A stretch of DNA of 64,000 bases, taken from contig SVOJ01000001.1 of the NCBI GenBank assembly GCA_015066385.1, positions 248,001 to 312,000 on the forward strand, given 5' to 3'. Each line of letters begins with the position of its first letter. Position 1 is the first letter of the stretch. Made by a program: the position numbers and the translations under genes. The notes beneath the pieces were generated by a model. The model was not told the DNA's origin. It was given only the letters and a program-made list of their open reading frames with translations, and did not search any database. Positions 1,151 to 64,000 of the stretch are shown here, in pieces. Source of the stretch: Oscillospiraceae bacterium (GTDB lineage Bacteria; Bacillota; Clostridia; Oscillospirales; Acutalibacteraceae).

Positions 1151-1328
1151 CTACCACACTATAATTTAATAATGCAACTCAATTTAAGGGTAGTCGTGTT
1201 TTTACCGTTTTGGTAAAAGCACTAACTTTGTTATTTCGATTTTCCCTTAGTTGAGAAATGAAATTATAGTGTGGTAGCTAATCGAAGTTGGTGTTTTTCG
1301 TGTGTGCTTGACTTCGGTTAGCACACAC
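1151..1328 (+). promoter_or_regulatory. Structured 5' leader with terminator/antiterminator
   Basis: The leader begins with a perfect 17-bp stem, CTACCACACTATAATTT (1151-1167) with its complement at 1261-1277. Nested inside are CTCAA-(T)-TTAAGGG (1178-1190) with CCCTTAGTTGAG (1244-1255), and TTTTACC (1200-1206) with GGTAAAA (1212-1218), extended by GTG/CAC. After this, bases 1280-1288 (AATCGAAGT) can pair over 9 bp, with one G-U, with 1311-1319, which is the loop of the terminator at 1300-1328. The two foldings exclude each other, which is the architecture of an attenuator or riboswitch. No known aptamer or T-box is recognised. A MITE inserted in the 5' UTR would also explain the outer inverted repeat. 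Confidence 0.6.
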
Positions 1329-1337
1329 TTTTTTTAT
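1300..1337 (+). terminator. Leader (attenuator) terminator before the LRR gene
   Basis: GTGTGTGCT (1300-1308) and AGCACACAC (1320-1328) form a perfect 9-bp stem followed by seven Ts. It lies between the promoter and the ribosome binding site AAGGAGG (1341-1347), so it would stop transcription of the gene just downstream unless it is prevented. Confidence 0.8.
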
Positions 1338-1355
1338 TTTAAGGAGGATGTTGAA

Positions 1356-4235
1356 ATGAAGCACACATTCAAAAAGAGTATTGCTGTTATTCTTGCAACA
1401 CTCATGCTGCTCACGGCTGCACCAATGGCAGGCTTTGTCGTCATTGAATTGCCGGGAGTTTCTTATGCGCAAGCCTCAGAAATCCTTGATTCCGGCACGT
1501 ATGGAGCATTTGTCTGGACATTGGATAAGGATTACACGCTGACCATATCCGGCTCCGGTGAACTTACGGGAGAGTATCCGTGGGAATCCTATCGCAATTA
1601 TATTAAAACTTTGATCATTGATGACGGGTTGACGCATTTATCCTATGATACTTTTGAAAATTATACCTCGCTTGTCAGCGTTACTATACCGGCTGATAGT
1701 ATCACTCATTGGTCATCTCATATTTTCAGGGGATGTTCGGCATTGACCGAAATCAATGTATCAAATCCGACGGAATATGAATTCTCTGTAGATGGCGTAT
1801 TATATCTTGGTGATACATTACGGAGGTATCCTGAAGGAAAAAGAGATGTATCTTTTTCTGTGCCTGATACAGTTAGCACAATAGGTTGTGGAGCTTTTTC
1901 TGACAATGTTTGGTTGCAAAGTGTTTCTATTCCTGCAAATGTCACATCCGTTGAATCCGGTGCATTCAGTGGATGTTCTACATTGTCGTCTGTTACCTTT
2001 GATGAAAACAGCCGCGTGAGTTTGATTGAAGAGGATGTTTTTCGGGATTGTACGGCATTAGTAGGAATTGAATTGCCCGAGAGTGTTATGACTGTTTTTG
2101 GCGGTGCATTCACAAATACTGCATTTTTCAATGATTCTTCCAATTGGGAGAATGGTGTATTATATATTGGCAAACATCTGATTCGAGCAAACAAAGATGC
2201 ATCTTCTTCGTATACTGTTAAAGACGGAACGAAATCCATTGCTACATATGCTTTTTATGGTTGTTCTTTGTATGACATTACCATTCCGGACAGTGTGATA
2301 GGTATAGGTATGTCGGCTTTTGATGAAACACCCTACTACTACGATCAATCCAATTGGATTGACGGATGTTTTTATGCGGATGATCATTTGATAATGAGAT
2401 CTGCAGATATAGCAGGTGATTACACCATCAAAGATGGTACCAAATCCGTTAGCATGTATGCATTTTACGGTTGCACTGAACTCACATCTATTACGATTCC
2501 CAGCAGTGTGAAAAGTATTGGAATTGCAGCTTTTGGTGATTGCTCTTCCCTTACTTCTGTTTCGTTTGCAACGGACAGTCAGTTGTTATATATTGACTAT
2601 TTTGCATTTAGTGGTTCTGCACTGACAGCAATGCGCATTCCTGATAATGTTGAAATTATTGCATATGATGCTTTTGCTGACTGTTCAGCATTGACAATAA
2701 TCAGTATTCCGAGCAGTGTTGAATATATCGCATCTGGTGCATTTGAAGAATGCACATCCCTTTCTGCTGTATATATCGAAGACATTGATGCGTGGTGCAA
2801 TATTGATTTTGCGGATATAGAAAGTTCTCCATTGGTTGTTGCCGCAGCAATAAATAGTTCTTATTGTCCTTTGTATCTGAACAATGAACCGGTAACGGAA
2901 ATAACTGTTTCATCTTCCAAAGGTAATGCAATAAAAGATTATGCATTAACTTATTGTTTCACTTTGATGAAAGCCAATATTCAAGAGGGTATTGAGACCA
3001 TCGGCAATTATGCATTCATGGGTTGTACTTCACTTTCGTCCGTTGCGCTTTCGACCGATGTAAAAGTTATTGAAGATGAAGCATTCAATTTTTGCTTCTC
3101 GCTGACTGATGTTTATTATGGCGGCACAGAAGAAGAATGGAATGCAATTGAAATCGGCATTAACAATGATTATTTGCTGAATGCTACCATTCACTTTAAT
3201 TCAACAGGGGAATGTGCCCATGTCCCAAGCACCGTTACCCAGCCGGAAAGCTGTACCGTAAACGGCTACATACTGACAGTCTGTGACCTGTGCGGTGAGC
3301 AGTTGTCATTTGAAACCATTCCGGCGGCACACGCCTGGGGCGAATGGATTGAAACAAAGACCGCAACCTGCGTGCAGGTTGGTGAAGAAACACGCACCTG
3401 CGGCAGATGCGGTGAAACCGAAACCCGTGAAACGGCAATTGGCGACCATGATTTCAGTGCGGAATGGACGATTGACGTTGAGTCCACCTGTGCGCAGGAA
3501 GGCAGTCAGTCCCGTCATTGCAAATACTGTTCTGCAACGACCGATGCAAAACTCGTGGAAAAGAAAGAACATACTTTTGGTGAATGGTATGTTGTGATTG
3601 AACCGACTTTGCTTGCGGACGGTAAAAAGGAACGCAAGTGTTCTGCTTGTCATGCAACCGAGGAAGAAGCAATTGAAAAACTTCTCTATAAAGAATATGT
3701 CAATGAAGAAACGGGAATCGGCGTCGGTGTTACCAAGGAAGCTTACGGCGGTAAGGATATCACCGTTGAAATTGAGGAAGTCTTTGACGGCAGTCAGTTT
3801 GTGACGAATAACTATGGAAAAATCCGCACATGGAATATCAAAACCCATCTGAACGGCGAAAAGGTGCAACCTCTTGAACCTGTATACATCAGGATTCCGC
3901 TTCCTGCCGATTACAATGCAAACAGAATATTTGTATACCATGTCAATTCGCAGACCGGTGTGAGTGAAAAACTTGCAAGCGAGGTCATTGACGGTTATAT
4001 CTGCTTCTACACCGATTCATTCAGCCGCTTTATCATAGTCGATGAAAGCAGTTTGATTGAAACACCCGATCCGGATGATCCTGATGTTCCCGATGAACCT
4101 GATGAACCCACCAAAAATTGCTCCCACCTTTGCCACAAGGACGGCATTCTCGGCTTCTTCTGGAAAATCATCCGCTTCTTCTGGAAGCTGTTCGGCATGA
4201 ATCCCATCTGTGAATGCGGTGCGGCGCATTATTAA
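1356..4235 (+). CDS. Secreted BspA-like leucine-rich repeat protein with Cys-repeat region and conserved C-terminal tail
   Basis: The 959-residue product starts at ATG 1356, eight bases after AAGGAGG; an in-frame ATG at 1302 lies inside the leader terminator and is unlikely. The signal peptide is at residues 1-37 (MKHTFKK followed by a hydrophobic core). LRR_5/BspA-type repeats ('SITIPSSVKSIGIAAFGDCSSL') fill about 40-615. Next come three or four HxxxxxxxxxxTCxxxGxxxxxCxxCG units (about 618-795), typical of Clostridia surface proteins. A beta-rich region leads to an acidic PDPDDPDVPDEPDEP linker (about 902-917). The final 40 residues hold CSHLCH, FFWKIIRFFWKLFGM and CECGAAHY. That tail recurs, nearly unchanged, in the GLUG protein at the right end. 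It probably binds host or cell-surface ligands; the function of the tail is unknown. Confidence 0.85.
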   Translation: MKHTFKKSIAVILATLMLLTAAPMAGFVVIELPGVSYAQASEILDSGTYGAFVWTLDKDYTLTISGSGELTGEYPWESYRNYIKTLIIDDGLTHLSYDTFENYTSLVSVTIPADSITHWSSHIFRGCSALTEINVSNPTEYEFSVDGVLYLGDTLRRYPEGKRDVSFSVPDTVSTIGCGAFSDNVWLQSVSIPANVTSVESGAFSGCSTLSSVTFDENSRVSLIEEDVFRDCTALVGIELPESVMTVFGGAFTNTAFFNDSSNWENGVLYIGKHLIRANKDASSSYTVKDGTKSIATYAFYGCSLYDITIPDSVIGIGMSAFDETPYYYDQSNWIDGCFYADDHLIMRSADIAGDYTIKDGTKSVSMYAFYGCTELTSITIPSSVKSIGIAAFGDCSSLTSVSFATDSQLLYIDYFAFSGSALTAMRIPDNVEIIAYDAFADCSALTIISIPSSVEYIASGAFEECTSLSAVYIEDIDAWCNIDFADIESSPLVVAAAINSSYCPLYLNNEPVTEITVSSSKGNAIKDYALTYCFTLMKANIQEGIETIGNYAFMGCTSLSSVALSTDVKVIEDEAFNFCFSLTDVYYGGTEEEWNAIEIGINNDYLLNATIHFNSTGECAHVPSTVTQPESCTVNGYILTVCDLCGEQLSFETIPAAHAWGEWIETKTATCVQVGEETRTCGRCGETETRETAIGDHDFSAEWTIDVESTCAQEGSQSRHCKYCSATTDAKLVEKKEHTFGEWYVVIEPTLLADGKKERKCSACHATEEEAIEKLLYKEYVNEETGIGVGVTKEAYGGKDITVEIEEVFDGSQFVTNNYGKIRTWNIKTHLNGEKVQPLEPVYIRIPLPADYNANRIFVYHVNSQTGVSEKLASEVIDGYICFYTDSFSRFIIVDESSLIETPDPDDPDVPDEPDEPTKNCSHLCHKDGILGFFWKIIRFFWKLFGMNPICECGAAHY

Positions 4236-4315: not shown

Positions 4316-6559
4316 TCAGCTGAACAACAACATAATTCTGCTGAAAATCATCAGGAAAAATGCCTTGATTTTTGCTATAAGGCTGCTTTCGTTGCCGAGG
4401 TTCAGTTGTACATTTACATCTTCTCTTTCTTCGCTGTCTGCGGTGAAACGGAAGTCATCCACGCTGATGTCTGCACCTGCCGCGCCGAGGTCTGCGAATG
4501 TGAATGTCACATTCTTAACATCATTGAGCACATTGTGCGAATAGGTGGAGGTTGCCTTGTTGCCTTGCGGATAGAGTGTGTTCAGGTCGAGGGTGACGGT
4601 GTGCCATTCGCCGTCGGCAGGGATGGTTGCATCATCCATGATTTTTGCAGTGTACCAATCGCAGTTGCTGTTGCCCGTTTCAATGCGCAGTTCGTCAAAA
4701 CGGACCGCTTCGCTGGATTCCACACGGACTTTGAAAGACAGTGTTCCGTAGTTGCTCCAATTCAGGTCTGCATCTTGGAAATATGCAGTTTTGCCGTTTT
4801 CGTTGTAAGTGAAATTCGGGCTGATGCTGAAGGTGTCGCTGTTGCCGTCTGCACAAACAAGCAAACCTTTTTCGCCGCTGTAGGCACTGCTTTCAGCAAA
4901 GCGGAGTGTTGCATTGCTTACATTCCATGTGTTGTAAAAACCGCTGTATTCGTTGCTGTGGCAATGCCAGTAGGAGTCATAATCGCAGTTTGTCCATGCT
5001 TCGTTCTGCCACGTGTGCGCCGTGCGGAACCGGTTTGTGATGAACGGGGAGACTGCCAAAAGTTTTTCGCCGTTTCTCGATGCAAACAGATTTGCTTTGC
5101 CGTTGTATTGCGCAAAGGCATAGGTGGCACTTGCGGGATTTTCAATGCCGTCGCAATAAATACGGACGGTGTCATTGGAAACCAGTTGAGCATCTGCCGC
5201 AACATAAATTCCGTCATCGCCGCAGATTGCAAAGCCGTAAAGTGTATCGCCGTCAACCATAAGACCGTCACCGATGTTATTCAGTGTCACATAAATGCTG
5301 TTGTCTTTGTAGACGATTTTTGATTTGTAGGGTGCGCTGTAACTGTCATGCCTGTCATAAACGAGTCCCAGTGCCGCATAAGCCATTTTTTCACCGACTT
5401 CCTGCTTGCAGATGGGGTGAATGGCATGTGTGACGACATCGTAGGAAAGCGGAATATCATAAATCGAAGTCATGGCTCTGCTGTCGGGCTGCAGGCTTTG
5501 CATGTCTGCAAATTCCGCATTTTTGGACTGCAGTGCATTGGCATCACCGTATGAATAAGAAGCCAGCTGCGTATAAACAATGGGCAGAAGCCCGTCTTTG
5601 TAATTAAAGTATTCCGTATAAGATTTTTGCAGCAGATTGAATGCTCTTGTATACTGACCGTTTTCCCAGAAAAGATCCGTTTCCCCTTGATACCAGATCA
5701 TACCCGACAGACGGAAGTTTTTCAGGGGGGCAATCTTGTCGTTGAAATTGCAGGTCATATCCGAGCTGAAATTGATTTTGTCTTCTTTCCAATCGGCAAG
5801 AGCAATATATCTGCCGTCGGCTTTGCAGTCGTTGAGTACACCGACATCATTTTCAATCGCTTCACGCGAAAGCCATGTCAGAATGGATGTGCCGCCTAAG
5901 TTCGCATTGAGAATGCCGACGGGCATATCCAGTTTTTCGATCATTTCTTCTGCAAAGAAGTAGCCGACCGCACTCAGTCCGTACACATTTTCATCCGTAC
6001 CCTTGTACCAATTTACCGCAACCCCGTAATCCGTGATGGGTTTTGCCGGATAATGTTCGATGTTGCCGTCATAACCGCCTTGTGCCGGTACGGCAAGAAA
6101 ACGCAGTGCATCACTGCCGACAATGCCGTTTTGTTGCATGGATATCCCCGTTTCGGACTGACCGAGCGGCATCTGCATGTTGGATTGACCGCCTGCCAGC
6201 CACAATTCACCGAATACAACCCCCGTCAATACGGCAAACTGCTTGTTGTTGACGGTCAATGTAATGCTGTATTCATCATAACCACCTGCGGGAGCAGGAA
6301 AACTGACTTTGAATGTGCCGTCGGGGGCAACGACCGCGTTTGCCGTCTGTATGCTTGTGCCTGTTGCGTTTTTAAGGGTCAATGCAATGTTTGCACCGGG
6401 CGTGCCCGTGCCGGCAAGCACGGCTTCATCCAACTGCTTGAACAACATGTTGTTACCGTAGTAACTGTAAAGTTTTGCTTGTGCTTCGTCAGCAACGGCA
6501 AAAGCCGCCGAGCCGAGCAAAAAAGCAACCGTCATAAGAATACTGAGCATCTTTTTCAT
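4316..6559 (-). CDS. Secreted sialate O-acetylesterase-like protein with C-terminal carbohydrate-binding-like domain
   Basis: The 747-residue product has a signal peptide (MKKMLSILMTVAFLLGSAAFA) and starts behind GGAGG. The core resembles SGNH-fold sialate O-acetylesterases: 'GELWLAGGQSNMQMPLGQSE' carries the nucleophile block GQSNM near residue 130, then 'NANLGGTSILTWLS', 'MIWYQGETDLFW' and a late 'VVTHAIHPICKQEVGEKMA' that supplies the Asp/His-type block. Such enzymes remove acetyl groups from sialic acids or plant polysaccharides. About 530-710 form a beta-sandwich-like module ('NWSNYGTLSFKVRVES'). The protein ends in a short hydrophobic/basic tail, FFLMIFSRIMLLFS, reminiscent of tails on three other secreted proteins here. 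It is divergent from the GH30 gene, so it probably joins the local glycan-use locus. The exact acetylated substrate is unknown. Confidence 0.8.
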   Translation of the reverse strand: MKKMLSILMTVAFLLGSAAFAVADEAQAKLYSYYGNNMLFKQLDEAVLAGTGTPGANIALTLKNATGTSIQTANAVVAPDGTFKVSFPAPAGGYDEYSITLTVNNKQFAVLTGVVFGELWLAGGQSNMQMPLGQSETGISMQQNGIVGSDALRFLAVPAQGGYDGNIEHYPAKPITDYGVAVNWYKGTDENVYGLSAVGYFFAEEMIEKLDMPVGILNANLGGTSILTWLSREAIENDVGVLNDCKADGRYIALADWKEDKINFSSDMTCNFNDKIAPLKNFRLSGMIWYQGETDLFWENGQYTRAFNLLQKSYTEYFNYKDGLLPIVYTQLASYSYGDANALQSKNAEFADMQSLQPDSRAMTSIYDIPLSYDVVTHAIHPICKQEVGEKMAYAALGLVYDRHDSYSAPYKSKIVYKDNSIYVTLNNIGDGLMVDGDTLYGFAICGDDGIYVAADAQLVSNDTVRIYCDGIENPASATYAFAQYNGKANLFASRNGEKLLAVSPFITNRFRTAHTWQNEAWTNCDYDSYWHCHSNEYSGFYNTWNVSNATLRFAESSAYSGEKGLLVCADGNSDTFSISPNFTYNENGKTAYFQDADLNWSNYGTLSFKVRVESSEAVRFDELRIETGNSNCDWYTAKIMDDATIPADGEWHTVTLDLNTLYPQGNKATSTYSHNVLNDVKNVTFTFADLGAAGADISVDDFRFTADSEEREDVNVQLNLGNESSLIAKIKAFFLMIFSRIMLLFS

Positions 6560-16063: not shown

Positions 16064-17122
16064 ATGAAAAAAATAAAAAAAGTTTTAGCTGTTTTGCTGA
16101 CAGTGTGTCTGCTTGTTTCCGGTTTTTGTATTGCCGTGAGTGCATCGGGCAGAAAAACCGCACTTCCTACCTCTGCAGGTATTCAGGCGTTGCGCAATGA
16201 ATTTGACAGCGATGTTGCTCCCAAAGCGGGCGGTTATGCTTTGGATTATTGCTATTATTCTCCTGTCGGCACAAATGACAATACAAAATACCCTCTTGTT
16301 ATTTTCCTGCACGGCATCGGCCATGCTGATTATGCAGGGGCGCAGTTGGCAGACAGTGATATGCCGTATTGGGCTTCTTCCGAATTGCAGGGTCGTTTTT
16401 CGGAAGGCGGTGCTTTTATTCTTCTCCCCCGCGCACCCGAACATAAACTTGTTTATTGGGGAACATCCTTGATTGAACCGCTGCGCGCTGTCATTGATGA
16501 TATGATCGCAAAACACGGTGATAATATTGACACAAGCAAAATCTTCATCGGCGGCAGTTCTGCAGGTGCCGAAATGACCTGGAATATGATTGTTGCTTTT
16601 CCGGATTATTTTGCGGGTGCATTTCCCATTGCCGCAACCGGTACGGTAACGGCAGCCAATGTCAAAACCTGTTCCGATGTTGCAATCTGGATGATTGCCA
16701 GCAGTAAGGACCCTGTTATCAGCTACATTGCAACAACCCAGCCTCTTTGGAACAATGTCTGTAAATACAATAACCAGCCCGAAAACTGCCGTCTGACCAC
16801 TCTTTCCAAGGTTATAGAACCTGCCGGTGGTTCAGCAAGTGACAATCATCACATGGCAAAAGTGGTTACTTATGACCTGCACATGCTTGATGGCAGTACC
16901 TATCTGAATGCAACCACTGTGGACGGCAACGGAAATACGGTTTCTCTGGTCAGTCCCAATGGCATGATTTCATGGATGAACGGTGTTTCTTCTGCCTACG
17001 GTGGAGAAACAGGGTCGGATTCCGGGAATATCAATGTGAATCCTCTGACCCAAGCATTGGACCTTATCCGCAATTTCTTTTTGAAAATTGTTAACATTTT
17101 CCAACGCCTGTTCGGTTTATGA
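16064..17122 (+). CDS. Secreted alpha/beta hydrolase (PHB-depolymerase/CE1-like esterase) with C-terminal tail
   Basis: The 352-residue protein starts behind ACGGAGG with a signal peptide (MKKIKKVLAVLLTVCLLVSGFC). The fold is shown by 'YPLVIFLHGIGHADYAG' (oxyanion strand), the nucleophile elbow GGSSAG (about S167), 'MIASSKDPVIS' (Asp region) and 'SASDNHHMAKVV' (His region). Such extracellular esterases remove feruloyl, acetyl or similar esters from polysaccharides; the substrate is not determined. The last 16 residues, FFLKIVNIFQRLFGL plus a leading Asn, match the FFWKIIRFFWKLFGM tail of the LRR and GLUG proteins, but without their Cys/His frame. The next gene starts within its stop codon (ATGA overlap), so the two are coupled. 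Confidence 0.85.
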   Translation: MKKIKKVLAVLLTVCLLVSGFCIAVSASGRKTALPTSAGIQALRNEFDSDVAPKAGGYALDYCYYSPVGTNDNTKYPLVIFLHGIGHADYAGAQLADSDMPYWASSELQGRFSEGGAFILLPRAPEHKLVYWGTSLIEPLRAVIDDMIAKHGDNIDTSKIFIGGSSAGAEMTWNMIVAFPDYFAGAFPIAATGTVTAANVKTCSDVAIWMIASSKDPVISYIATTQPLWNNVCKYNNQPENCRLTTLSKVIEPAGGSASDNHHMAKVVTYDLHMLDGSTYLNATTVDGNGNTVSLVSPNGMISWMNGVSSAYGGETGSDSGNINVNPLTQALDLIRNFFLKIVNIFQRLFGL

Positions 17123-60294: not shown

Positions 60295-63200
60295 TTACCA
60301 ATGAGTTACACCGCAATCACAATACTGCTGAATGCCAAAGAGTTTCTGGAAGAAACGAATTATCTTCCAAAAGAACCTCATAAGAGTATTCCCACTGTGG
60401 CAGATATGGGCACAAATTTCGTCTGTGGGTTCGTCGGGCTGTTCTGGCTCATCAGGTGTGTCGGGCTGTTCGGGTCCTACGGGGTTCTCAAACTCGTGTC
60501 CGCAACCGTAGTCACACTTGTAGTCGCCGTTATCGTCTTTGTGCGTGAGAGCAGGATTTTCCTTTTCATCGGTTGCACCGCATCCGTTGTCGCAGGTCGC
60601 AACTTCTTTGCCTGCAACACCGCACTTGGCTTCTTCTGTTACTTCGTACTTTGTGAAGGAGTGTTCAAGCGCATCAACTGTTATTGTGTCTCTGTCAAGT
60701 TCTTCACCGCAAATATCACAGTAAACTACAAGGTCGTATGAGCCTGCAACACCACACTTGGGAGCAACCTCGTTTTCTTTTACTGCTTCAAGAGGCTCGT
60801 GAGTGAGAGCAGGAATTTCCCTTTCATCTGTTGCACCGCATCCGTTGTCGCAGACAGCCACTTTCTTGCCTTCGACTTCGCAAGCGGGTTCATCAACGAC
60901 TTCGTAGTTTGTGAAGACGTGAACACCGTTTGCACAGTTATTCATTGTTTCTGCAATGGCTTCGGCTCTTGCAAGCAGACCGCTGTTTGCAAGGTCGGCC
61001 ACTGAGGTGATTGCATTTGACTTGAGAGCGTCAAGTTCCTTCTTGATACCGTCAAGTTCTGCCTGCATTTCGTCGCTGACGGTTGCAGTTTCAAGGGCTT
61101 CGTCAATGCCTGCAATGACTTCGTCGATCACACTGTAGTCAGCCTTGCGCATGCTGCCGTCCTTGAGACCTGCAAGGAGCGTTTCAAGTTGATTTTCATA
61201 GTCATATGTTACCATGTTGCTGTCATGGGCAGCCTGCGAAAAATTGCCGTTATTGAGTTGCGCCTTGTGATAATTGTTAGGACCGTAATACTTGCCGCTT
61301 TCAGTGGGAATAATATTGTTCGGGTTACTGTCGATAAGGGCGTTGACTTCATCAAGAAGAGCTGTCATATACGAAAGGTCTGCCTTTTTCATCGTATTGT
61401 CGGCAAGCCCTGCCTTTATCGTGGAAATGATGTTGTTCAATGTCTGTGTGCCGTTGCTAACAGTCGACTGTTCGCTTTCGATTCTGTCAGCGCTCACTCC
61501 GTTCATCACAGCGCTCAGGGTTGATGTGTAATCCTGCTTCGGGCCGTCGATAAGGTCTGCTTTTGCAAGAAGTTCGCTGAGTTCTTCTACAGCGGCATCA
61601 AAGGCTGTGTAATCGGCTCTGTTGACAAATTCGGTGTCGACATTGCCGCAGTCGGGACAAGTGGTGACGATGCTGCCCTGTCCCCATGTGCCGTCGGCAT
61701 TCTGAACGGGACGGATCAGAGAACTAGTCGCATTTGCATGGTCGCAGACATAATCACAGACCGTGCATTCGCCGTCCATGAATTCATGTTCCGTTTTTTC
61801 GGAAATCTTGTCGCAGTCATCTGCGGTGCATTCTTTCCAATGTTTCGCGTTGTCATATACCCAATCGCCGCTGAAATCACAGGTGTGGAGCGTTACACCG
61901 CAGACTTCGCAAACTGATCCTGTCTGATTTTCGTGTGCACATTTAGCACCGCATCCGTTTGCGCAAACGCCGTCAAGGTTTGACCAGTTATGTGCAGGCT
62001 TTTCTGCCGACACATCGCTTGCATTGTTGGTATAAACCATTTCTTCGTCTTTGCAGGTGGTATAACCGCCGTAAACCTTGTCGCCGCCGAGTACGGGGGA
62101 AGCTTCTGTGCCGATGGTCTGTCCCCAGACCTGCTCGGTGCGAGCACCCTGCAGAAGATATGCCACCTCACCGGATGCAAACTGTTCTGCGGTTTTGACT
62201 TCCGCCTGACCTGCCGCATCTGCACCGTTGATACCGCCTTCAGCAGTGCCGGCAAGATAGTAACAATTGGTGAGCGTGCTGTTTTCAGCAGGATAGCACA
62301 CAACGCCGCCGACATCATCGCCGCTGACTATGGTAAGAGTGCCAATGTTATAGCAGTTCACAATGGTGCCATTGTTTTTACATGCTACGCCGCCCATTCC
62401 GCTGCCTTTGGAGGTTTTTGTAACACTACCGGCATTGTAGCAGTCCTCAACAGTGCCATAGTTATAACATACCACACCGCCGATGCCGGTATAAGACTGT
62501 ATCCAACCGTTGTTGCTGCAGTTTTTAACGGTGCCTCTATTTTCACCTGCCACGCCGGCGACAATATAATAGGCTTCCATACGACCGGTGTTTCTGCAAT
62601 TCTGCACGGTGCCATAGTTTGTTCCGACCAAGCCAACATAACTTGAGCCAAAGATATAACTGTCGGCAAGGGTCAAATTGCTGACCTTGCCTCCCTGACC
62701 GACATAGCCGAACAGGCCGACATGATTCTCATATTTCTTTATATACAAACCGCTGACCGTGAAATGATTACCGTCGAATGTGCCGGTGTATATGTAGTCA
62801 TCATCGCCGATACGGTTCCATGCACGGTAATCACTGCCGACTCCGTTCAGTGTGCCGTCTTCATTGAGAACATTATTATTAACGGTGATATCGGCAGTCA
62901 GTTCTGCACAGGCGGCCTTGTTTTTTGCCACATCGCCGTAGCCGGTGCTTACAATCGCCGAAAACCAATAGAGCTGACCTGCATTGGAAATCAGATAAGG
63001 ATCACTTTCGGTACCGCTGCCCGTTGCAGGCTCAAAAACGCCGCAAGAGCAGATGCCGTTGTTGGTGAAACTGCATACATGAAGCTCACCGCCGCAGATG
63101 CCGCAGATCGCACCCGTCTGATCTTCATGTGCACATTCCTTGCCGCAGTTTGCACAGATACCGTCCTTATTTGACCAATCGTGTGCAGGCTTTTCTGCCG

Positions 63201-64000
63201 GCACCTCGCCTGCCTTGTTGGTGAAAACCATACTTGCATCGTCTTTGCAGGTGGTATAACCGCCGTAAACCTTGTCGCCGCCGAATACGGGCATAGCATC
63301 TGTGCCGATCTTCTGTCCCCAGACCTGTTCGGCCTGTTCACCCTGCAGGAAATAGGCCACATCGCCCGAAGCAAACTGCTCTGCAGTTTTAACTTCTGCC
63401 TGACCCGCTATGTCCTTTCTTGCGATACCGCCGGCGGCAGTACCCGTAAGATAGTAGCAGGCAGTGACGGTGCCGTAATTGTTGCCCGAAATACCACCGA
63501 CAAACTCGCTGACGTTAACATTTGAGGTCGTGCATTTGACCATGCCGGTGTTGAAACAGTCGGAAATAACAGTGTTCTTGGGGTTCGCACCTGCGATACC
63601 GCCGATCCAAAGTCTGCCGATGACCTCGCCGGTATTATAACTACTCTTTACGGTATTCAGGTTATGACCGGCCACACCACCGATATAGTAGCTTTCTGTA
63701 TTTGTACCTTTGACTGTTGCGGTGTTGCTGCAGAATGTAACGATGCCGTCGTTGTGTCCTACAACGCCGCCTACCAGGGAGTGTCCGGACACATTGCCTG
63801 TGTTGCTGCAATGGATGAGTGTGCCGTCGTTGCTGCCGGCGATACCGCCGATATACATATCATTCCCCTCAACATTGCCTGTGTTGCTGCAATGGGTGAG
63901 TGTGCCGTTGTTGCTGCCGACAACACCGCCGATGGTATCGCCGTCACCGTAGTCAAAATCGTTGTTAAATCTGACAGTGCCGGTGTTATGGCAGTTTGAA
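60295..64000 (-). CDS. Giant GLUG-repeat surface protein with conserved C-terminal tail (5' end outside window)
   Basis: About 1,235 residues are visible and the frame runs off the right edge, so the N-terminus is not seen. GLUG-type repeats ('IGGIAGSNDGTLIHCSNTGNV') fill the first ~200 visible residues and recur at about 440-600. Between and after them are Cys-rich linkers ('CANCGKECAHEDQTGAICGICGG'). An alpha-helical stretch resembling FIVAR modules lies at about 790-1050, then Cys-repeat units, an acidic linker, and the last 40 residues with CAHICH, FFWKIIRFFQKLFGI and CDCGVTHW. This ending is shared with the LRR protein at the left end. It is probably a cell-surface adhesin or matrix protein. 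The nearby recombinase may be unrelated. Confidence 0.85.
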   Translation of the reverse strand, partial: SNCHNTGTVRFNNDFDYGDGDTIGGVVGSNNGTLTHCSNTGNVEGNDMYIGGIAGSNDGTLIHCSNTGNVSGHSLVGGVVGHNDGIVTFCSNTATVKGTNTESYYIGGVAGHNLNTVKSSYNTGEVIGRLWIGGIAGANPKNTVISDCFNTGMVKCTTSNVNVSEFVGGISGNNYGTVTACYYLTGTAAGGIARKDIAGQAEVKTAEQFASGDVAYFLQGEQAEQVWGQKIGTDAMPVFGGDKVYGGYTTCKDDASMVFTNKAGEVPAEKPAHDWSNKDGICANCGKECAHEDQTGAICGICGGELHVCSFTNNGICSCGVFEPATGSGTESDPYLISNAGQLYWFSAIVSTGYGDVAKNKAACAELTADITVNNNVLNEDGTLNGVGSDYRAWNRIGDDDYIYTGTFDGNHFTVSGLYIKKYENHVGLFGYVGQGGKVSNLTLADSYIFGSSYVGLVGTNYGTVQNCRNTGRMEAYYIVAGVAGENRGTVKNCSNNGWIQSYTGIGGVVCYNYGTVEDCYNAGSVTKTSKGSGMGGVACKNNGTIVNCYNIGTLTIVSGDDVGGVVCYPAENSTLTNCYYLAGTAEGGINGADAAGQAEVKTAEQFASGEVAYLLQGARTEQVWGQTIGTEASPVLGGDKVYGGYTTCKDEEMVYTNNASDVSAEKPAHNWSNLDGVCANGCGAKCAHENQTGSVCEVCGVTLHTCDFSGDWVYDNAKHWKECTADDCDKISEKTEHEFMDGECTVCDYVCDHANATSSLIRPVQNADGTWGQGSIVTTCPDCGNVDTEFVNRADYTAFDAAVEELSELLAKADLIDGPKQDYTSTLSAVMNGVSADRIESEQSTVSNGTQTLNNIISTIKAGLADNTMKKADLSYMTALLDEVNALIDSNPNNIIPTESGKYYGPNNYHKAQLNNGNFSQAAHDSNMVTYDYENQLETLLAGLKDGSMRKADYSVIDEVIAGIDEALETATVSDEMQAELDGIKKELDALKSNAITSVADLANSGLLARAEAIAETMNNCANGVHVFTNYEVVDEPACEVEGKKVAVCDNGCGATDEREIPALTHEPLEAVKENEVAPKCGVAGSYDLVVYCDICGEELDRDTITVDALEHSFTKYEVTEEAKCGVAGKEVATCDNGCGATDEKENPALTHKDDNGDYKCDYGCGHEFENPVGPEQPDTPDEPEQPDEPTDEICAHICHSGNTLMRFFWKIIRFFQKLFGIQQYCDCGVTHW

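Follow-up and report, generated by a model that had tools for sequence, protein, structure and literature searches.

The 64,000-nucleotide stretch of DNA analysed here (hereafter the window) is part of contig C21 of a 3.17 Mb assembly, and it encodes predicted exported proteins of unrelated domain composition whose C-termini look alike. This raises the question of what these ends have in common and what they might do. A first-pass annotation had placed four C-termini under a single aromatic and basic pattern, and had proposed that they represent a new anchoring or export signal. The four C-termini it quoted were confirmed by translation. The LRR_5 protein, whose likely start is at position 1356 (MKHTFKKSIAVILATLMLL...), ends in CSHLCH...FFWKIIRFFWKLFG...CECGAAHY, and the GLUG-repeat protein in CAHICH...FFWKIIRFFQKLFG...CDCGVTHW. 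The complete gene of the latter (C21:308295-315227) extends beyond the end of the window, and the predicted signal peptide is encoded in the outside part. Tails in which the helix is enclosed by two Cys/His clusters are named framed here, and those lacking the clusters, as in the two esterases, unframed. The positions of all these features are given in Table 1.

Table 1. Positions in the window of the four proteins and of the elements at their C-termini.
Feature	Position	Strand	Basis
LRR_5 (BspA-type) exported protein with framed tail	1302..4235	+	translation, Pfam, signal peptide heuristic
LRR_5 framed tail, complete, 38 residues up to stop	4119..4232	+	
LRR_5 tail, N-terminal Cys/His cluster CSHLCH	4119..4136	+	
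LRR_5 tail, amphipathic aromatic/cationic helix (tail positions 11-28)	4146..4199	+	
LRR_5 tail, C-terminal Cys/His knuckle CECGAAHY	4209..4232	+	
Exported SASA-family esterase, convergent with LRR gene	4316..6559	-	
SASA borderline unframed hydrophobic C-terminus AKIKAFFLMIFSRIMLLFS	4319..4375	-	profile 7.7, moment 0.23
Exported esterase, PHB-depolymerase-like (under curated cut-offs), unframed helix tail	16064..17122	+	
Esterase unframed amphipathic helix IRNFFLKIVNIFQRLFGL, without Cys/His	17066..17119	+	profile 29.0, moment 0.60
GLUG-repeat exported protein, part within window	60295..63858	-	
GLUG framed tail CAHICH...CDCGVTHW, 39 residues up to stop	60298..60414	-	
GLUG tail, amphipathic helix	60331..60384	-	

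The framed tail can be written as CxHxCH–(24–26 residues with an aromatic, cationic helix)–CxCGxxH[YWF]. When the genome of the window was searched with the LRR_5 tail, the GLUG tail was retrieved with an E-value of 7e-12; judged by their sequences, the two are homologous and represent one and the same element. The search returned 16 places, comprising 14 complete framed tails, one fragment (contig C47) and one unframed helix (contig C18). The clusters of the 14 framed tails are separated by 24 to 26 residues, and the last motif residue is located 0-6 residues before the stop.

A DNA pattern derived from the LRR_5 tail, which fixes the Cys/His frame and does not require a stop codon, matched one place in the window versus none in 100 shuffles. 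It identified 74 loci in 84,980 species genomes. All 74 are located within 0-8 residues of a stop, 66 of them exactly at the stop, which bears out the earlier claim that the tail always occupies the extreme C-terminus. According to their titles, all loci belong to metagenome-assembled genomes of Clostridia, Oscillospiraceae, Ruminococcaceae or Ruminococcus, and the hosts, where named, are goat, sheep, deer, yak, cattle, buffalo, horse and rabbit. Two further pattern sites are present on a viral contig equal to the chromosome of the window.

We also built a profile HMM from 13 tails of the window's genome, which likewise hold the Cys/His residues that the pattern fixes. Of 300 genomes from the family of the window's genome, 25 had a match, representing 10 of 135 genera; these include the doubtful G055, the sole match of its genus, and G148, which has the unframed helix only. 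Up to 23 matches per genome were obtained, some of them partial. In the order and class samples, this HMM had no match except in the window's own genome, and an HMM built from the 74 tails had none in the phylum sample. The 28 HMM loci (L049-L076) contain 25 readable framed tails; L060 was not recovered by the expression, L071 is unframed and L072 is doubtful. The tail codons give a pS of 0.83 and a pN of 0.27. Tail ends were in addition observed on short frames, of 21 residues at C47:99151-99213, 139 residues at L097 and 46 residues at L151. A 2383-residue exported protein in the sampled stretches of genome G224 (L177-L193) has an altered frame, CSCSCHRNGFWGILFRFFHTFISWFTGRINCCSNPDPRY, in which the first cluster is kept and the second is degenerate.

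The proteins carrying the tail are predominantly predicted to be exported, in agreement with the enrichment that the first-pass annotation had named as a check. A signal peptide was predicted for 47 of the 50 pattern loci with a complete frame (the other 24 of the 74 are cut upstream of the gene start and were omitted), versus 73 of the 296 genes of contig C21, with genes and signal peptides in both sets called heuristically by simple scripts of our own rather than by a trained predictor. The three carriers lacking a signal peptide are short, fragment-like frames of 139, 210 and 46 residues. By the same heuristic, 8 of 10 framed carriers in three sampled tail-bearing genomes have a signal peptide, and the 5' end of the two others looks altered or cut. 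The carriers have many domain types, although leucine-rich repeats dominate: the 48 that were scanned include 26 BspA-type LRR proteins, three calcineurin-like phosphoesterases, two GLUG proteins and two proteins with cohesin domains, as well as single proteins with rhamnosidase, lipase, transglutaminase, beta-helix and other domains. They match 27 Pfam families, and none of the 25 of these that are listed is a wall-binding domain.

Some observations on the surroundings of the tail are recorded here. In the LRR_5 protein and many other carriers, the tail is often preceded by repeated GH...TCT..G....C..CG units or D.D.DG.CD.CG segments, which are possibly metal-binding repeats themselves. Phage record PV036458.1 (annotated as a 'complete genome', Heliusvirales; host Oscillospirales, source human feces) is 99.995% identical to C21:124706-144843 over the 20,138 bases compared. 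Two proteins bearing the tail (C21:133783-140256 and 141136-144843) are encoded among the last large genes of this record, and these genes may be either prophage cargo or the result of a phage boundary drawn too wide. Beside them is an inverted duplicate of ~650 bases with 80% identity (C21:133189-133839 and 140554-141206), which overlaps a TetR-like regulator sequence; a similar regulator gene is present at L082 and L142.

The frame had been suggested to be a possible metal site, and the conservation of its residues is in line with that suggestion. Since the pattern demands C2, C6, H7, C32, C34, G35, H38 and D/E at position 33, the invariance of these residues in the 74-locus set is built in, and we therefore looked at positions left free. 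Position 4, at which the pattern also permitted Arg and Tyr, is occupied by His in 49 of the 72 distinct tails and by Cys in the other 23, and Gly10, which was not demanded, is present in all 72. Among the 25 HMM-found tails, which were read by eye and overlap partially with the pattern set, C6, H7, C32, C34 and H38 are conserved in all, C2 in 24 and G35 in 23, and position 4 is His in 18 and Cys in seven. Conserved Cys/His ligands with Cys–His exchange are a mark of structural metal-binding microdomains, and judging from these alignments the framed tail probably binds a metal. The alternative of a disulfide-locked hairpin without metal would suit the four Cys residues, in two pairs, that most tails hold. 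However, exchange of His for Cys combined with an odd number of Cys residues is a sign of metal ligands and not of disulfides. The exchange at position 4 results in five Cys residues in 23 of 72 tails, plain disulfides are disfavoured because the count is then odd, and His7 and His38 are conserved as well (25/25 in the HMM set); we regard this alternative as extremely improbable.

The description of the central part as an aromatic amphipathic helix with regularly spaced K/R also held. The hydrophobic moment has its maximum at 100-110 degrees (0.44, versus 0.25 for shuffled sequences). The polar positions 13, 17, 20, 24 and 27 form a single stripe of 80 degrees, with K/R at 17, 20, 24 and 27, and the positions outside the stripe are mostly bulky and hydrophobic. 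The White–Wimley interfacial sum averages -6.35 for the framed helices (range -9.43 to +0.80), compared with -5.46 for the C-terminal end of Escherichia coli PBP5 and a mean of +3.34 for 124,099 background 18-mers, only 0.4% of which are as low as the framed-tail mean. Like in-plane anchors of the PBP5 type, the tail is a C-terminal amphipathic helix on an exported protein. The basic stripe might instead bind teichoic acid or peptidoglycan, making the tail a wall- or polymer-binding motif; the net charge of the helix is indeed at least +1 in 72/72 cases (mean +2.8), but its best-conserved positions are aromatic and aliphatic, not basic, and such a function seems very unlikely.

To investigate the unframed tails, a profile was constructed from the 72 framed-tail helices and applied to stretches sampled from 12 genomes, three tail-bearing and nine tail-free. 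With a score limit of 7, which was chosen after the list for the window's genome had been seen, unframed C-terminal helices were detected in 9 of 152 signal-peptide proteins versus 0 of 421 other proteins of the three tail-bearing genomes (p = 5e-6), and versus 0 of 221 signal-peptide proteins of the nine tail-free genomes (p = 0.0003). When the two window proteins that had motivated this comparison are excluded, 7 of 150 remain (p = 0.0016). The count is 10/152 at a limit of 4 and 5/152 at a limit of 10 (p = 0.011), with 0/221 in tail-free genomes in both cases. When the last 42 residues were shuffled, 0.18 matches were obtained on average (maximum 2), and internal matches were found in 3/583 and 7/933 genes. 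Five of the nine tails are from the window's genome and four from G224; the G187 sample contains the framed tail and no unframed one. Their interfacial sums range from -0.19 to -5.90. The esterase tail scores highest, at 29.0, whereas no internal score in the 1516 sampled genes exceeds 14.4, and the SASA end is second-lowest and only weakly amphipathic. A relative, G148, has at a stop codon SNAGFFWRIISFFKNLFGIDRYVY, nearly a framed helix minus the frame.

The unframed helix tails are thus a looser second class. Uniting them with the framed tails was right (9/152 versus 0/221), and the single pattern drawn for all four window proteins applies to the LRR_5 protein, the GLUG protein and the esterase; its extension to the SASA protein (7.7, moment 0.23) was too strong, as this protein is a borderline case whose C-terminus appears closer to a plain hydrophobic end. 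Two large proteins with unframed helices were noted in passing. One, in the G224 sample (L177-L193), is 9342 residues long, is predicted to be exported and has the amphipathic helix LNWFQRLIKKIKEFFAKIFSIFK at its end. The other, of 1824 residues, is an exported protein encoded at C21:205305-210779 that has NAGPA and phosphoesterase domains, a choline-binding repeat and the helix tail; the repeat and the helix would possibly give it two anchors.

AlphaFold2, run with 74 alignment rows, predicted the framed tail with a mean pLDDT of 93.7 (85.3-93.7 across five models) and a pTM of 0.59. In the predicted structure, residues 10-24 are helical, the first cluster forms a helical turn, and a 30/36 bridge closes the CxCGxxH end. 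In this compact model, part of the hydrophobic face could pack on the cap instead of on lipid. No solved structure in the PDB matched the framed tail by sequence (0) or fold. Neither Pfam nor NCBIfam contains a model for it: the matches were weak (best E 0.011), namely pheromone VP1 for 8/74 tails and PSM epsilon for 2/74, both families of short amphipathic peptides, and six single Pfam matches. The libraries searched accordingly contain no signal of this form, as had been surmised. The string CECGAAHY occurs in no paper of the open-access library searched, and the framed tail is not described in the titles and abstract beginnings that searches of this library on C-terminal sorting, CTERM signals, amphipathic anchors, zinc folds and BspA proteins returned. 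Excerpts of a review of Gram-positive surface proteins (PMC12445088) name sortase signals, the lipobox, choline-binding, LysM, GW, SLH, CWB2 and SH3b as means of surface attachment and contain no such tail; in another (PMC5817068), the terms amphipathic, amphiphilic, C-terminal anchor, tail-anchored and peripheral are all absent.

We then considered what kind of element would explain these properties. As in LPXTG or PEP-CTERM systems, the tail might be a C-terminal sorting signal: a dedicated membrane protease or transpeptidase would recognise the frame and cleave off the tail in the course of linking the protein to the wall. It would share with such signals the strictly C-terminal position, conservation up to the last residue, the many types of cargo, the number of matches (as many as 23 in one genome, some of them partial) and the restriction to one family. 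However, none of 47 carriers has an LPXTG-like end or a C-terminal transmembrane stretch, as screened with regular expressions, and the K/R residues sit inside the helix. Co-occurrence with a processing or anchoring gene, which the first-pass annotation had named as support, did not emerge: no cluster of non-tail neighbouring genes is common to more than 3 of the 74 loci, sortase is present in all 44 genomes tested (20/20 tail-bearing and 24/24 tail-free), and exosortase (PF09721) was found in 0/20 tail-bearing genomes by a search that did find it in one control genome. An unlinked, distant processing factor is possible. Because conservation extends to the final residue and no transmembrane stretch followed by a basic end is present, an anchor is favoured over a processed export signal on these sequence features, and we consider a sorting signal quite unlikely.

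A dockerin-like docking module, in which a small domain folded by metal would bind to a surface receptor or to itself, would agree with the compact and confident predicted fold, and with the cohesin domains found in 2/48 carriers and in one protein with an unframed helix. On the other hand, the tail has no sequence likeness to a known domain, its hydrophobic face, going by the helix energetics, looks too wide for a 38-residue domain to bury, and unframed helices exist alone; this possibility is a distinctly weak one. We think it reasonably probable that the tail is a portable C-terminal module for surface retention, in which the framed form is a metal-capped, amphipathic in-plane membrane anchor resembling that of PBP5 and the unframed form a plain helix. 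Once the protein has been exported by Sec and has lost its signal peptide, the cationic and aromatic helix would embed itself, lying flat, in the outer leaflet of the cytoplasmic membrane, as the in-plane anchor of E. coli PBP5 does. The clusters C-x-[H/C]-x-C-H and C-x-C-G-x-x-H would bind a metal ion, most likely zinc, and wrap both peptide ends around the helix to form a small, stable cap. Unframed tails would do the same job with the helix only, and in both forms the tail would provide membrane binding and surface retention. Counting against an anchor is the strict conservation of the last eight residues, which exceeds what a plain anchor needs. An unlikely variant is a metal-switched anchor, in which the metal-bound cap orders the helix for insertion, and loss of the metal to chelators of the host or of competitors frees adhesins and enzymes together.

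The last 18 residues of E. coli PBP5 are a membrane anchor required for localisation and function (excerpts of PMC2909392), and in-plane membrane anchors have been described as a class (excerpts of PMC1564421). The PBP5 (DacA) anchor is similar to the tail in its position at the extreme C-terminus of an exported protein, its length of ~18 residues, its FFxKII... sequence with K on one face, and its moment and mean hydrophobicity (0.49 and 0.33, versus 0.46 and 0.43 for the LRR_5 tail); unlike the framed tail, it has no Cys/His frame. The helix profile finds its best place in PBP5 at the exact C-terminus, and because the score is low (3.0) the likeness, by this profile, seems to be one of kind rather than of ancestry. 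Anchors of this type are known for a few carboxypeptidases and are not known to occur as a portable C-terminus across LRR, GLUG and hydrolase proteins. The window's genome has four loci for S11 carboxypeptidases, and neither of the two that were read has such a tail; the one in the window ends in LGFFSSLWLLLCSLGKEKAE (helix-profile score 3.5). This counts against the anchor reading, because the closest known users of such anchors are without it here.

Other known systems resemble the tail in part. Sortase (LPXTG) signals are also C-terminal, portable and present on exported surface proteins, but differ in the features given above, the presence of sortase being independent of the tail. PEP-CTERM, GlyGly-CTERM and MYXO-CTERM are short homologous C-termini on unrelated exported proteins, as is the case here; unlike the PEP-CTERM type, the carriers lack a transmembrane stretch, their genomes lack exosortase (0/20) and no NCBIfam model matches. 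Small zinc-binding folds, such as the zinc ribbon and the treble clef, have a CxCG knuckle and one helix surrounded by Cys/His ligands, as in the framed tail, but do not match it by sequence or fold, and its helix differs in being membrane-like and placed between two ligand clusters. The C-terminal domain of type IX secretion belongs to Bacteroidota with por genes, whereas the carriers here are Clostridia.

For a family of gut Clostridia represented here only by metagenome assemblies, the tail offers a way to approach, from sequence, how large exported LRR, GLUG and hydrolase proteins may be kept at the surface. Its 38-position profile could unite many uncharacterised exported proteins in one surface set, and the framed tail might act as a short display tag. 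If the metal switch is true, a cell would shed a whole set of adhesins and enzymes at one time; as many as 23 tail matches, some of them partial, occur in a single genome.
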